Positions 11,142-17,817 of a DNA stretch of 64,000 nucleotides are shown here, in pieces (position 1 is the stretch's first letter; the number at the start of each line of letters is the position of its first letter). The notes beneath the pieces were generated by a model that saw nothing but the letters and a program-made list of their open reading frames with translations, was not told where the DNA came from and ran no database searches. Made by a program: the position numbers and the translations under genes. Source of the stretch: Desertivirga arenae (GTDB taxonomy: Bacteria > Bacteroidota > Bacteroidia > Sphingobacteriales > Sphingobacteriaceae); contig NZ_JAFEWE010000001.1 in the NCBI RefSeq assembly GCF_017355785.1, forward strand, positions 868,001 through 932,000, in the 5' to 3' direction.

Positions 11142-11957
11142 ATGAGCTTAAAAAACAAAACTGTTATTATTACAGGTGCATCTTCAGGTATTGGCCGGGC
11201 TTGCGCTGAAGAATTTGCAAAACAGGGAGCCAACCTTGTTCTGGGTGCCCGCCAGTTTGTTACTCTTTGTGAAATAGCACAGAAAATAGAAAAAGACTTT
11301 GGGGTAAAAGCGATTGCTGTTCAGTGCGATGTATCCAAAGAAGAGGATTGCGAACATCTAATTAAACAAGCAGAATTAACCTTTAACAGGATTGATGTCT
11401 TAATTAATAACGCTGGGATCAGTATGCGAGCTCTGTTCAAAGACCTTGATCTGGTAGTGATTAAGAACCTGATGGATATTAATTTCTGGGGTACTGTGTA
11501 CTGTACAAAATTTGCCATGCCTCAATTATTAAAGAACCAGGGATCAGTAGTGGGAGTATCCTCTATTGCGGGATATCGGGGATTACCGGGCCGTACCGGT
11601 TATTCAGCATCTAAGTTTGCTATGAATGGATTCTTAGAAGCTTTGCGGGTTGAAAATTTGAAAACAGGACTTCATGTAATGATCGCGGCACCAGGGTTTA
11701 CGGCTTCCAATATCAGGAATACCGCCTTGGCGAAAGATGGCAGCTCACAAGGAGAAACGAGTATGGATGAAGGCAAAATGATGACAGCTGAGGAAGTGGC
11801 AGCAATTATCGTTGATGGAGTGGTTAAACGCAAAAGGACCCTAATAATGACAGGCCAGGGGAAACTGGCGGTTTTAATGAATAAACTTATACCAGCCTGG
11901 GTTGACAAAAAAGTATTCGAACTGTTTGCAAAGGAAAGAGATCCACTTATCAAATAA
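11142..11957 (+). CDS. Short-chain dehydrogenase/reductase (SDR family oxidoreductase)
   Basis: Classical SDR of 271 residues from the ATG at 11142. The Rossmann motif TGASSGIG is at about residues 11-18, NNAG near 90, catalytic Ser in GVSSIAGYRG and YSASK (Tyr-x3-Lys) about residues 155-159. The substrate loop does not identify a substrate. The C-terminal region (RKRTLIMTGQGKLAVLMNKLIP) resembles SDRs related to 3-ketosphinganine or acylglycerone reductases. It sits 25 bp before pssA, hinting at lipid metabolism; that link is inference. Confidence 0.88.
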   Translation: MSLKNKTVIITGASSGIGRACAEEFAKQGANLVLGARQFVTLCEIAQKIEKDFGVKAIAVQCDVSKEEDCEHLIKQAELTFNRIDVLINNAGISMRALFKDLDLVVIKNLMDINFWGTVYCTKFAMPQLLKNQGSVVGVSSIAGYRGLPGRTGYSASKFAMNGFLEALRVENLKTGLHVMIAAPGFTASNIRNTALAKDGSSQGETSMDEGKMMTAEEVAAIIVDGVVKRKRTLIMTGQGKLAVLMNKLIPAWVDKKVFELFAKERDPLIK

Positions 11958-11982
11958 AAATGCTTATCTAAAAACAATAAAA

Positions 11983-12516
11983 ATGGCCAGTAACAACTCC
12001 ATAACCCGTTTTGTCCGCCTTCCGGATCTTATTTCCCTTGGAAATGGAGTACTTGGCATCCTATCCATCATCTGCAGTATTCATCATTACACAGATCTTG
12101 CTGTTCTGGCTATCGTTCTAGCTGGAGTTCTTGATTTTCTTGACGGGCGCATTGCAAGACGAATGGGTTTGGCCTCTCCTTTTGGGGTTCAGCTTGATTC
12201 TCTATGTGATATTTGCTCTTTCATTGTTGCTCCGGCAATTTTTGCCTATACAATGGACAGCATTGATGTTACCATCAGGATTGCGCTGGTAATTATTTAT
12301 CTGATTGCCGGATTGCTACGACTTGCACGCTTTAATATTACAGGCACCCTTGATAATGGGAAATATTTTGAAGGAATGCCGGTTCCTTTTAGTATTGCAA
12401 TTGTATGCAGTTACTTTCTGTTCACTTACTTCGGCCTGCCCCTCCTTATTTGGATGGCACTATATTTTATTCATGCATTCCTGATGGTTTCGACTTTGAA
12501 AATCAGGAAGCTTTAA
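11983..12516 (+). CDS. pssA: CDP-alcohol phosphatidyltransferase, probably phosphatidylserine synthase
   Basis: A 177-residue integral membrane enzyme that joins a CDP-diacylglycerol to an alcohol, most likely serine. The catalytic signature D-G-x2-A-R-x8-G-x3-D-x3-D is complete (DGRIARRMGLASPFGVQLD, then D of SLCD), at about residues 54-76. Around it are five to six hydrophobic helices. The N-terminal LPDLISLGNGVLGILSI resembles type II PssA. The start is ATG at 11983; the upstream in-frame extension overlaps the SDR gene and is not homologous. The last 4 bp overlap the convergent yitT-like gene. Confidence 0.85.
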   Translation: MASNNSITRFVRLPDLISLGNGVLGILSIICSIHHYTDLAVLAIVLAGVLDFLDGRIARRMGLASPFGVQLDSLCDICSFIVAPAIFAYTMDSIDVTIRIALVIIYLIAGLLRLARFNITGTLDNGKYFEGMPVPFSIAIVCSYFLFTYFGLPLLIWMALYFIHAFLMVSTLKIRKL

Positions 12517-13530: not shown

Positions 13531-14475
13531 ATGAAGATAAAAAAAGCAGTAATTACTGCGGCTGCTCGGGGCGAACGCCTTTACCCTGTTGCTGACACGA
13601 TACAAAAAGCAATGCTTCCTGTTATTGATGTTGATGGTTTACATAAGCCAGTTATCCAAATCATTGCAGAAGAGGCCTTTGCCAGTGGAATTGAAGAAAT
13701 TTGCATTGTCTGTGCACCAGGAGATGGAGAGCGGTACAAAGCAGCCTTCAAATCCTTAAGGGACAATCTGGTAAAATCCTTCCAGAATGCCGATTGGGCA
13801 AACCAGGAAGCACAGAAAATTGACCATTTAGTAAACAACCTCCATTTTGCTGAGCAGGCAGAAGCTAAGGGTTACGGACATGCGGTGCTTTGCGCGGCAG
13901 AATTTACAGGAGATGATCCTTTCCTTCTGCTTCTGGGAGACTACCTTTACATCTCTGAGCTGGCACAAAAGCGCTGTGCTGCACAACTGATCGATCTTGC
14001 AACCCAGGAGAATTGTTCTGTATCTGCAGTAAATCCAACCCCTGAACATCTTATCGGACGTTACGGAACTTTAACCGGTAAACAGTTGAGCAATCAGCAC
14101 GGCGTTTACAAAATCGATAAGATCATAGAGAAACCGTCCCTAAGCCTTGCAGAGCTAGAGTTGCAAACTCCAGGCCTGCGTATTGGATATTACTTATGCT
14201 TTTTCGGAATGCATGTGTTCACGCCTTCTGTAATGAAAATGCTTGAGCAACAAGTGCAAGGCGGTGCAGAAAATATTATGCTGACCCCTACCCTTCAGGA
14301 ACTAGCAGAATCAGAGAAATATCTTGCGCTTGAAGTTAAAGGGTCGCGCTATGACTTGAGTCGCAAACATGGTCTGTTGCAAGCTCAACTTGCACTAGGA
14401 CTTGCGGGTGAAGCAAAAAGCGAAACTCTGGGAACGCTCGTTGAACTACTTGCCGAAGCTAATTCCAGAAAATAA
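13531..14475 (+). CDS. GalU-like nucleotidyltransferase (UTP--glucose-1-phosphate uridylyltransferase family)
   Basis: A 314-residue single-domain sugar-nucleotide pyrophosphorylase. The N-terminal nucleotide loop is ITAAARGERLYP, followed by K-A-M-L-P-V-I-D. The metal/sugar region reads LLLLGDYLY and the sugar loop includes IGRYGTL and KIIEKP. C-terminal DLSRKHGLLQAQLALGL matches the GalU end. The usual G-x-G-T-R loop is changed to A-A-R-G-E-R, so substrate preference may differ from housekeeping GalU. It is directly upstream of, and coupled to, a much larger protein that also carries a nucleotidyltransferase domain, so the pair probably act in one sugar-activation pathway. Confidence 0.85.
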   Translation: MKIKKAVITAAARGERLYPVADTIQKAMLPVIDVDGLHKPVIQIIAEEAFASGIEEICIVCAPGDGERYKAAFKSLRDNLVKSFQNADWANQEAQKIDHLVNNLHFAEQAEAKGYGHAVLCAAEFTGDDPFLLLLGDYLYISELAQKRCAAQLIDLATQENCSVSAVNPTPEHLIGRYGTLTGKQLSNQHGVYKIDKIIEKPSLSLAELELQTPGLRIGYYLCFFGMHVFTPSVMKMLEQQVQGGAENIMLTPTLQELAESEKYLALEVKGSRYDLSRKHGLLQAQLALGLAGEAKSETLGTLVELLAEANSRK

Positions 14476-14481: not shown

Positions 14482-17400
14482 ATGATGAATGTTTTTGTAG
14501 AAACAATTACCTCTGCAGAGCCGGAGAAACGCAACCGCTCCTTCTTTGAACTTGCTTCCAAATTCTCTTCAAGAGAACTTTTAAACGAGCTTATTCAACT
14601 GGAGAAATTTAGAAAGTCGACCGATAACCTTTACGATAAAGTGAGGGCGATCTTATTTTTAAATGCGGGCTTTCGCTATTTCTTAACAGAGGCAAAAGAT
14701 ATCCCGGAGACGGGAAAAATCCCCTACAGGGGTTTTGAAGATCTTTTGGGCAGGCGATTTGAAGAAGCCATTTCAGTCTTCTTGAATGATTTAAGCACGA
14801 ACGGCCCTAATGCTGCTTTATTCAGCGGATTAGCTGAATGCTATCATCATCTCTCGTTCCAGATCTTAGCCGATCAGGTGCGTAAAAGCGTTCGTTCCAG
14901 TAAGGGAAATCAATGGATGTTCCGCGCTGGAAACAAGGATGAACACCCTATATCCATACATCCTCAACTCCTTCAGAGAAAAGATAATTCTTTGTTCTAT
15001 CCGATCCTTCATGAGCAGACTTCAGTAAGGATGGATTTGACCCATAGTGGCTGGTCGGATATATTCTTCCTGGGAATGGACTATCCTGAAGGAGCACGTG
15101 TGATCAACGTCTCTATTGATCTCGGCGTATATGGTCGTGATAAAGATATCCGACCGCCGTTGAACTCGTATTTCAGAGTAATTCCAGAACCTGTTTTAAG
15201 GGTTACAAGCATCGACCTGGGTACCACGAAAGATATCACAGATCTTGACGATCTTTTTAATTTCGGAAATGATTATTTGAGTCTGGTTAAAGCAGGTATA
15301 ATTGCTTCAGGTCTAATCCCACCGTCTTTCGAGGGAACTAATCAATCACTTCCAGCTGTGCTGGCAAGAATTGCCGGACAGGGAATGGGAATTGAACTGG
15401 TAACACGGGTGAATGACATACCTAAGGGCTCGCGATTTGCCGTATCCACCAATTTGCTGGGATCTATCATTAGTTTGCTTATGCGGGCAACGGGGCAGAC
15501 GGAGAATTTAACCGGGGGACTAAACGAACAGGAAAGAAGACTTGTTGCTTCCAGAGCAATTTTGGGCGAATGGCTAGGCGGTTCTGGAGGCGGATGGCAG
15601 GATTCCGGAGGCGTATGGCCAGGGATCAAAGCGATACAAGGAGAATTTGCTCAGCCTGGTGATCCGGAGTTTGGTGTCTCAAAAGGAACATTATTACCGA
15701 GGCATAAAGTACTGACAGGCGAGGACGTCCATCCTGATTTCTTCCAGAAACTGACGGGCTCTTTGGTGCTAATGCATGGAGGTATGGCTTCTAATGTCGG
15801 ACCTATCCTTGAAATGGTGACTCAAAAGTACCTTTTAAGAGGGCAACGTGAAACGGCAGCAAGACAGCAAACCAATCAAATCTTCGAAAATATATTGGGA
15901 GCTATCAAAGAAGGCGATGTGAGAAAGCTTGCAGAAAATACAGATAAAAACTTTGCAGGCCCTATCAAGACCATTATTCCCTGGGCTTCTACTCATTATA
16001 CTGAGGAATTGATCCGCAAAGCAAAGCAACAGCTTGGGGCTGACTATTACGGCTTCCTTATGCTGGGAGGAATGTCTGGGGGAGGAATGGGAATGTTTGT
16101 AAATCCCGATAAATATGAGCTATACAAACAGCAATTGCTGGAGACCCTATTAAGCACTAAAAAAGCTCTTTCATCATCACTTCCTTTTGCTATGGACCCA
16201 GTTGTTTACAATTGGGATATTAATCATAAAGGGACAGTAGCAGACATGCTGGAGGGCAATGACGCGGTGATGCCTGAGCAGTATTATGCCATTCAGGTGT
16301 CAGACCTTGTGCGAAAGGAGCCATCTTCCATTTCATACATCAGAAGGGCTGAGATCGATTACTTTACCACCCATTGCGAGCAAAATAATATGGCCTATCC
16401 ATTGCTGCGCACCATTGTTAGTAACCTATTTAAGGTATCAGATCCTTCTTCTCAGGGGAACCGGGATGCAGAGAATGAGAAAGCGAACCGCATTAAGAAG
16501 GAAAATGGATTTGACTTTATTCAACATGAAGAGATCCGGGAGGAATTGCAGAAAGGCAGGATCGGTCTTTCAAGGAACCGCCTTCCTGCTGAAACTCTGA
16601 TAGAAGATGTAAAAGCAGAAGAAATTCAGAAGCTTGAAAAAATACAGTCAGTTGAAAGCGGGGAAAAGGCGATCCGGAGTGGAGAAGTTGGGGTAATAAG
16701 CTTAGCCGCTGGAGTTGGAAGTCGCTGGACAAAGGGTGCCGGTGTAATAAAGGCGATAAATCCTTTTGTAGAAATTAAAGGCATTCACAGAAGCTTCCTT
16801 GAGATCCACCTGGCTAAAACCAGGAAGGCCGCAGAAAAGTGGCAGGCAAGAATCCCTCATGTGGTGGCGACCAGCTATCTTACCCATTCTGCTATTGAAT
16901 TAAAGTTAAAGGAGACCCGGAACTTTGGTTATGATGGTCCCGTTTATCTTTCTGAAGGCAGGTCTATTGGCCAGCGGTTCGTACCCATGGAGCGCGACCT
17001 ACGCTTTATGTGGGAGGAGATGCCTCAGGAAACCCTGGATGAAAACAAGCAGAAGGTACGTGATTCAGTTCGGCAAAGTATGATCAACTGGGCTAAATCG
17101 AAAGGTGAAGGGACTGATTATGTAGATAATATCGCAGCACAGCGCTTCTCACCTTTGGGTCACTGGTACGAAGTTTCCAATTTGTTAAGGAATGGAACGC
17201 TGGCCCGCTTGATTCAAGAGCAACCTCAAATTCAAACGCTTATGCTTCATAATATTGATACCCTTGGCGCAGATATCGACCCTGCCGCCCTGGAGTATCA
17301 CTTGAAAAGTGGCAATGTTCTAACTTTTGAGGTAATTCCGAGACGACTGGAAGATCGCGGAGGAGGTTTAGCAAGGATCAACGGAAACTTGCGATTACTC

Positions 17401-17817
17401 GAAGGGCTAGCTCAGCCCCGGGAAGAGGACGAATTAAATCTTAGCTATTATAATTCAAACACCACGTGGATTCAGATCGATCCCCTACTTAAGCTGTTTG
17501 GCTTAACAAGAGAAGATCTTGCTAAAGGAGATGAAGCGAGACTAGCTAAAGCCGTGAGGAGTGTTGCACACCGCATCCCAACCTACGTTACTATTAAAGA
17601 TGTAAAGTATCGTTGGGGACACGCGCAGGAAGATATATATCCGGTTGCCCAAATTGAGAAATTGTGGACCGATATGACTGCTCTTCCTGACCTTAAATGT
17701 GGTTATCTTGCCGTTCCCAGAAGTCGCGGACAACAGATGAAGGACCCTGCACAGCTGGATAGTTGGGTGACCGACGGAAGTAAAGACTATATTATTGGTC
17801 TCGGCCAGTTTGAATAG
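14482..17817 (+). CDS. GHMP-kinase-like / UDPGP-type nucleotidyltransferase fusion protein, 1111 aa
   Basis: Large cytoplasmic fusion. Residues 1-180 are helical with no known family. About 180-610 resemble the fucokinase branch of GHMP kinases: motif 1-like HSGWSDIFFLG...GARVINVSIDLG (about 187-215), GGSGGGWQDSGG (about 366-377), and motif 3-like GGMSGGGMGMF (about 529-539). The phosphate loop expected as G-S-G-L-G-T-S-S reads GSRFAVSTN, so ATP binding is doubtful. About 735-1080 form a nucleotidyltransferase with LAAGVGSRW (about 740-748) and a KAINPF...IKG motif. Domain order is the reverse of bifunctional FKP, where the pyrophosphorylase comes first. It is 6 bp after a GalU-like gene with a strong SD. 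Databases may call it a uridylyltransferase; the substrate is unknown. Confidence 0.75.
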   Translation: MMNVFVETITSAEPEKRNRSFFELASKFSSRELLNELIQLEKFRKSTDNLYDKVRAILFLNAGFRYFLTEAKDIPETGKIPYRGFEDLLGRRFEEAISVFLNDLSTNGPNAALFSGLAECYHHLSFQILADQVRKSVRSSKGNQWMFRAGNKDEHPISIHPQLLQRKDNSLFYPILHEQTSVRMDLTHSGWSDIFFLGMDYPEGARVINVSIDLGVYGRDKDIRPPLNSYFRVIPEPVLRVTSIDLGTTKDITDLDDLFNFGNDYLSLVKAGIIASGLIPPSFEGTNQSLPAVLARIAGQGMGIELVTRVNDIPKGSRFAVSTNLLGSIISLLMRATGQTENLTGGLNEQERRLVASRAILGEWLGGSGGGWQDSGGVWPGIKAIQGEFAQPGDPEFGVSKGTLLPRHKVLTGEDVHPDFFQKLTGSLVLMHGGMASNVGPILEMVTQKYLLRGQRETAARQQTNQIFENILGAIKEGDVRKLAENTDKNFAGPIKTIIPWASTHYTEELIRKAKQQLGADYYGFLMLGGMSGGGMGMFVNPDKYELYKQQLLETLLSTKKALSSSLPFAMDPVVYNWDINHKGTVADMLEGNDAVMPEQYYAIQVSDLVRKEPSSISYIRRAEIDYFTTHCEQNNMAYPLLRTIVSNLFKVSDPSSQGNRDAENEKANRIKKENGFDFIQHEEIREELQKGRIGLSRNRLPAETLIEDVKAEEIQKLEKIQSVESGEKAIRSGEVGVISLAAGVGSRWTKGAGVIKAINPFVEIKGIHRSFLEIHLAKTRKAAEKWQARIPHVVATSYLTHSAIELKLKETRNFGYDGPVYLSEGRSIGQRFVPMERDLRFMWEEMPQETLDENKQKVRDSVRQSMINWAKSKGEGTDYVDNIAAQRFSPLGHWYEVSNLLRNGTLARLIQEQPQIQTLMLHNIDTLGADIDPAALEYHLKSGNVLTFEVIPRRLEDRGGGLARINGNLRLLEGLAQPREEDELNLSYYNSNTTWIQIDPLLKLFGLTREDLAKGDEARLAKAVRSVAHRIPTYVTIKDVKYRWGHAQEDIYPVAQIEKLWTDMTALPDLKCGYLAVPRSRGQQMKDPAQLDSWVTDGSKDYIIGLGQFE

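Follow-up and report, generated by a model that had tools for sequence, protein, structure and literature searches.

Within the stretch of Desertivirga arenae DNA analysed here (64,000 nucleotides; NZ_JAFEWE010000001.1, positions 868,001 to 932,000, referred to as the window), a gene on the + strand at 14482..17817 was found to encode a protein of 1111 amino acids in which a GHMP sugar kinase is fused to a UDPGP-type nucleotidyltransferase, with a gene for a GalU-like protein lying directly upstream. On balance, the fusion is best explained as a bifunctional kinase/nucleotidylyltransferase for sugar salvage, and its partner as GalF-like and probably regulatory. Computational analysis established both folds of the fusion, the conservation of its catalytic residues and of an altered phosphate loop in the kinase half, the gene pair, and the departure of the partner from its nucleotide-binding motif. 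A previous interpretation of the letters alone (the sequence-only reading) had described this open reading frame (ORF), and the motifs that it quoted are present.

The architecture of the fusion was drawn from the ORF list, Pfam, NCBIfam, a search of the PDB, AlphaFold and Foldseek, and consists of a helical region, the GHMP kinase, a helical linker and the nucleotidyltransferase. The AlphaFold model of the full protein (input alignment of 58 rows) had a mean predicted local distance difference test score (pLDDT) of 87.8 and a predicted template modelling score (pTM) of 0.87. With limits read off this model, the GHMP sugar-kinase fold spans residues ~175-590 (15004..16251, + strand) and the UDPGP/UGPase-type domain residues ~735-1111 (16684..17814, + strand). 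The secondary structure of the model showed residues 1-150 (14482..14931, + strand) to be an all-helical region, for which no family could be named and in which Pfam gave no match; it contains a strongly conserved stretch, QVRxSVRxxxGNQWMFR.

The profile search proposed in the sequence-only reading recognized one of the two enzymes: the single Pfam match in the fusion was UDPGP (PF01704; E-value 2.9e-13, 49.8 bits against a gathering score of 22), with no match to the Pfam GHMP models, and no NCBIfam model scored above its cut-off. Below its equivalog cut-off of 721, the NCBIfam model (NF009948) for FKP, the L-fucokinase/GDP-fucose pyrophosphorylase of Bacteroides fragilis, aligned with residues 177-543 (E-value 3.5e-18, 64.7 bits). 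The FKP kinase in the PDB aligned with residues 178-389 (E-value 2.3e-9). For the kinase half, Foldseek returned the FKP kinase 9iip (E-value 2.5e-18, TMt 0.82), also 9iit, and the heptokinase WcbL 4usk (E-value 2.0e-13, TMt 0.83). As modelled, the kinase half is a GHMP kinase fold nearest to the fucokinase half of FKP, which is its best solved match and has the same sugar-site and catalytic residues; the fold that had been proposed for the middle region is thus borne out. Like the fusion, FKP carries its kinase and nucleotidyltransferase in a single chain, but in the reverse order, with the pyrophosphorylase at residues 1-496 and the kinase at 519-949 (PMC11982464, as excerpted). The reversal of domain order that had been suggested was therefore recovered by Pfam, AlphaFold and Foldseek.

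A homologue search yielded at least 583 encoding stretches, the best 80 of which were kept, so that the sample leans to close relatives; further members were taken from the phylum of the window and from the phyla of loci L066 (Verrucomicrobiota) and L057 (Planctomycetota). After removal of repeats, 131 distinct fusion proteins remained, that of the window included, with the other 130 being 43-79% identical to it. By their record labels, the named rows belong to nine phyla (Bacteroidota, Hydrogenedentota, Planctomycetota, Verrucomicrobiota, Chloroflexota, Armatimonadota, Acidobacteriota, Fibrobacterota and Ignavibacteriota). Many of the rows are metagenome bins, and the labels Pseudomonadota and Actinomycetota, which sit among Bacteroidota rows, may reflect mis-binning.

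The phosphate loop of the kinase half, read from the PDB alignment and the family columns, is KGSRFAVSTN at residues 315-324 (15424..15453, + strand), where FKP has AGSGLGTSS (712-720). The form GSR[LF]AVST was identified in 130 of the 131 fusions (GSRLAVST in 90, GSRFAVST in 40), the exception being the copy on a Hymenobacter volaticus plasmid, whose gene is split and whose row is missing that part. A divergent, split member outside the 131 (L150) also reads GSRLAVST. The family does not fit the canonical glycine-rich loop of GHMP kinases, GSGLG(T/S)SS, whereas four FKP-like proteins from the same searches keep GSGLG[TA]SS (GSGLGTSS in L094, L151 and L157, GSGLGASS in L162). A chance or isolated change was ruled out by this comparison, and the altered loop is, as far as the alignments show, a trait of the family. 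Seven residues of the sugar site or of catalysis in FKP, R592, W599, D601, S719, E751, Q761 and D762, have unchanged equivalents in all 130 rows with letters at these positions. They lie in the sugar-site motif R183...W191-S-D193 (15028..15060, + strand; FKP R592, W599 and D601), in the loop, and in E363...Q373-D374 (15568..15603, + strand; FKP E751, Q761 and D762), with D374, E363 and S322 corresponding to the catalytic Asp and Glu and the Mg-ligand Ser. The roles of these residues in FKP, including those of the general base D762 and the Mg ligand S719, are described in the excerpted text of PMC11982464, which also names Ala900 as a residue of the motif 3 region. In the PDB alignment, Asp644 and Ile669 of the FKP base pocket pair with D245 and L268 of the fusion, both invariant in 58 rows.

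Retention of the seven residues and of the base-pocket Asp points to a functional kinase that depends on a nucleotide and has a re-tuned loop. The sequence-only reading had instead suggested that the kinase half may bind a sugar phosphate but not phosphorylate it. Such a pseudokinase would act as a sensor, binding the sugar or its phosphate with no phosphoryl transfer and regulating the UDPGP half. In favour of a sensor, Arg and Ala stand in place of two loop glycines in all 130 rows with letters there, and the third kinase motif is GGMSGGGM in the fusion but GAGGGG in FKP. However, the equivalents of D762 and S719 are among the residues left unchanged, and a site without catalytic duty would presumably have drifted in a family this divergent; the sensor is therefore considered unlikely, and the claim that sugar phosphate is bound without being phosphorylated was not upheld. 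Some GHMP-fold enzymes catalyse chemistry other than phosphorylation, and the GHMP half could in principle do likewise and hand a different activated sugar to the UDPGP half. The loop and motif 3, unlike those of FKP across the family, would suit this, but every kinase residue examined and the base-pocket Asp are kept, making it a highly improbable explanation.

The C-terminal half was found by Foldseek to match many UAP and UGP structures, the best being 8yp3 (E-value 1.8e-14) and 2icy (E-value 7.4e-14). To align it, hhalign was used with free-standing UGPase-like proteins from the L057 sample, which it matched at a probability of 99.9; two other alignments concurred for the central part. The nucleotide-binding loop, LAAGVGSRWTKGAGVIKA (16702..16755, + strand), contains K757, the counterpart of K135 in AnUGP. 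Residue 747 is Ser or Thr in all 131 fusions and residue 746 is Gly in 130, with G-x-G-[ST]-R present in 130 of the 131. The AnUGP residues with roles towards phosphates and metal (K135, H228, D258 and K403; PMC10470519, in part) are likewise kept, the first three in all 131 proteins and K403 in 128 with three gaps, as are the equivalents of N256 and E307 (each in 130, with one gap). Because these phosphate and metal residues are retained, the UDPGP domain looks active, to judge by its alignment. Stand-alone UGPase-like frames of 377-513 amino acids (L152, L153, L155, L156 and L158), scoring 72-91 bits to this half, are possibly kin of the source of the domain; other UDPGP-like frames from the same Planctomycetota-centred sample (L160, L161 and L163) scored 35-45 bits.

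An FKP in which the domains have merely been swapped was ruled out by the match of the C-terminal half to UGP/UAP structures, and since this half is nearest to UGP/UAP enzymes, the fusion is read as having arisen independently of FKP. Besides domain order and the UGP/UAP-like character of its nucleotidyltransferase, the fusion is set apart from FKP by its loop (GSRxAVST as opposed to GSGLGTSS), by the exchange of Thr602 for Ile, by the additional N-terminal helical region and by the GalU-like partner gene. With eukaryotic UGPase (UGP, PF01704) it shares the C-terminal fold and the catalytic Lys, His, Asp and Lys; it differs in the attached kinase, in the GXG[ST]RW nucleotide loop, and in the uridine-binding Gln and the sugar-site Asn331 taken up below. 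Zebrafish DrGKUP, a glucuronokinase/putative pyrophosphorylase, is similarly a kinase/pyrophosphorylase fusion thought to serve a UDP-sugar, but its pyrophosphorylase comes first, is of the short bacterial type and has an activity termed putative, and its kinase is a glucuronokinase (PMC3938481, as excerpted).

The partner gene (13531..14475, + strand; ORF list and NCBIfam) encodes a protein of 314 amino acids and ends six bases upstream of the fusion. Its product matched the NCBIfam model galU (TIGR01099; E-value 1.2e-44, 152.9 bits), short of the cut-off of 326.8, and aligned with GalU and YngB across nearly its entire length. A six-frame profile search located a partner directly upstream and on the same strand in 122 of the 127 testable distinct loci, a count in which five rows with the label partial and three with the label other are taken as having it; of the remaining fusions, five have no partner and four have too little upstream sequence. 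The proposed coupling to a GalU-like gene is therefore a conserved feature, and the identities of fusion and partner to the window pair were found to co-vary (r 0.97, 69 pairs).

Residue counts for the partner are based on 116 rows, in each of which it exceeds 250 residues in length. The nucleotide loop of the window partner (13555..13620, + strand; partner alignment) reads ARGER instead of GXG(T/S)R, and the T/S of this motif was present in none of the 116. Two classes were distinguished by the loop lysine (K26 in the window partner): 57 partners, here termed K+, have Lys (56) or Arg (one), while in the other 59, termed K-, it is absent through an eight-residue gap. The partner of the window is K+ and keeps its lysine. 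The sugar-phosphate pair E200-K201, corresponding to the glucose 1-phosphate site E201/K202 of GalU, is found in 116 of 116, and D137, E200, K201 and P202 are identical throughout. The model of a K- partner has a YngB/GalU-like fold (pLDDT 95.9). A stretch of approximately 24 residues (window partner residues ~73-96) occurs in K+ partners and is absent from most K- partners.

Since the T/S is missing from every partner and the loop Lys from 59, the partner is, by its residues, hardly a second full enzyme. GalF, from whose motif both the T and the R are absent, has very low activity, and changing T20 and R21 of GalU together lowered Vmax by three orders (PMC4643126, in part). The partner resembles GalU and low-activity GalF in fold and in its E-K sugar-phosphate site, and GalF too departs from GXG(T/S)R; it differs from them in adjoining the fusion and in its large class without the eight-residue stretch that carries the loop Lys, a loss not reported for GalF in the excerpted text of PMC4643126. 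As the partners depart from GXG(T/S)R while the UDPGP loop of the fusion keeps G-x-G-[ST]-R, catalysis would lie with the fusion, and the partner would act in binding or sensing, an assignment that is weaker for K+ partners such as that of the window. It had been proposed that the gene pair supplies two activating enzymes to one pathway, in which case the partner and the UDPGP half would both make nucleoside diphosphate (NDP)-sugars, perhaps different ones. The Lys or Arg kept in the loop of the K+ class and the near full-length match of the window partner to GalU and YngB would fit that proposal, whereas the loss of T/S in all partners, and of the loop Lys in more than half of those beside a fusion, does not; two active nucleotidyltransferases thus seem doubtful.

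Mapped onto a tree of the fusions, K+ partners belong to most Bacteroidota, Hydrogenedentota, Acidobacteriota, Fibrobacterota, Ignavibacteriota, one Armatimonadota row and a few Planctomycetota (including the divergent L143). The K- class comprises Verrucomicrobiota, Chloroflexota, most rows of the Planctomycetota sample and four genomes of the phylum of the window (L090-L093). The labels are strongly clustered, with 8 and 6 changes compared to approximately 43 in shuffles; the tree is a quick one without bootstrap, rooted at its midpoint, and does not give the direction of change between the classes.

For the bifunctional enzyme favoured here, the GHMP half would phosphorylate a free sugar at C1 with a nucleotide, most likely ATP, and the UDPGP half would then couple the sugar-1-phosphate to a nucleotide with release of pyrophosphate, giving an NDP-sugar. 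The loop G-S-R-[LF]-A-V-S-T would be re-tuned rather than broken, as the Mg-ligand Ser is kept and the invariant Arg may take over phosphate contacts. The GalF-like partner, having presumably lost much or all of its nucleotidyl transfer while keeping its sugar-phosphate site, would most likely bind the fusion and sense the sugar-1-phosphate or the NDP-sugar. A phosphoryl donor different from ATP has also been considered for the Arg-loop kinase. At its boldest, this idea has the kinase use the pyrophosphate that the UDPGP half of the same chain sets free, closing a cycle from sugar and nucleoside triphosphate to NDP-sugar and phosphate under the control of a product-sensing, retired GalU; this is the most speculative suggestion made here and the least probable.

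Several observations weigh against the favoured explanation. In the kinase half, the changes at G715 (Arg) and G717 (Ala), seen in 130 of 130 rows, and at T718 (Val in the 81 rows examined) fall where FKP holds phosphate via backbone NH groups; S720 is replaced by Thr, and the sugar-contacting Thr602 is Ile in all 130 rows. Model confidence is lowest at residues 370-372, 653-658, 751-753 and 1043-1050, three of which are near active sites. In the UDPGP half, no invariant Gln was found at 819-835 for the uridine-binding Gln198 of AnUGP, the exact equivalent position being uncertain, and at the position of Asn331 Met predominates (72 of 131), Asn being present in 30, so that sugar and base may differ from those of UGPase. 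With regard to the partner, five loci (L079, L142, L147, L148 and L149) lack it in at least 1500 upstream bases, the rest of those genomes not having been searched, and it is accordingly not strictly needed there. Most of the 57 K+ partners have retained R16 (55) and K26 (56), and members of this class, that of the window among them, could be active; the test on GalU covered the double change of T20 and R21 only, while most K+ partners retain the Arg.

The prevalence of the fusion is low and patchy. In the phylum of the window, the full protein was identified in 7 of 296 genomes, that of D. arenae included, with an eighth match being FKP-like; in and near its own family, it was found in 2 of 41 genomes, again including its own, and in neither of the two congeners in that sample. 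In the phyla of L066 and L057, best pieces above 600 bits were obtained in 30 of 337 and 17 of 294 genomes respectively, each count including the centre genome, which was picked because the gene is present. In these samples the best-piece scores were either above 600 or below 90 bits, with FKP-like proteins in the lower group. The H. volaticus plasmid (NZ_CP095065.1; locus L095, 10001-13327) carries the pair, the fusion being in separate pieces with no annotated gene in the table. In six genomes (G335, G428, G483, G352, G458 and G497), the module is accompanied by an FKP-like kinase match located in a different long open frame.

The genes around the pair were also surveyed. Neighbours were chosen with a crude ORF picker (126), and 24 were dropped by hand, about half as near copies and the rest as short or doubtful ORFs. 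Among the 102 flanking proteins scanned, no Pfam family was present in more than four at an E-value of 1e-5 (PGK reached four), and the NCBIfam maximum was likewise four; the gene pair therefore travels alone, and its neighbours give no clue to a pathway. PADLOC gave no match for anti-phage defence at an E-value of 0.01. With regard to a possible role of the module as sole source of UDP-glucose, no galU match above the cut-off was found in six genomes (that of D. arenae and five relatives). Across 13 genomes, the module itself accounted for the UDPGP matches in D. arenae and in G004, a second genome that carries it; the one further match, in G028, was weak and below the cut-off. In the congener G001, the SDR gene and a gene that we take to be YitT match the window, and 8.1 kb on the module side had no match to window positions 8-24 kb; an empty insertion site could not be demonstrated from this comparison, and in the congener G002 nothing matched YitT. 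In the window, an ORF (11902-12516) that is presumably phosphatidyltransferase-like separates the SDR and YitT genes, whose matches in G001 are approximately 140 bases apart.

No paper was recognized as dealing with this fusion in the literature searched, coverage of which leaves out most subscription journals and preprints, so that absence is not proven. The new elements are the loop, the separately built fusion and the changed partner; a dead kinase is not among them. The family is large, well conserved and widely scattered, and Pfam sees its UDPGP half only, with no NCBIfam model above cut-off. If the explanation favoured here is true, it would represent a separate way of building a kinase/nucleotidylyltransferase fusion, with a phosphate loop that has diverged from the GHMP signature although the catalytic residues are unchanged, and with a GalU-like partner that is maintained in one operon in two forms, one having the loop lysine and one lacking it. 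For synthetic purposes, the fusion might also give access to unusual NDP-sugars.

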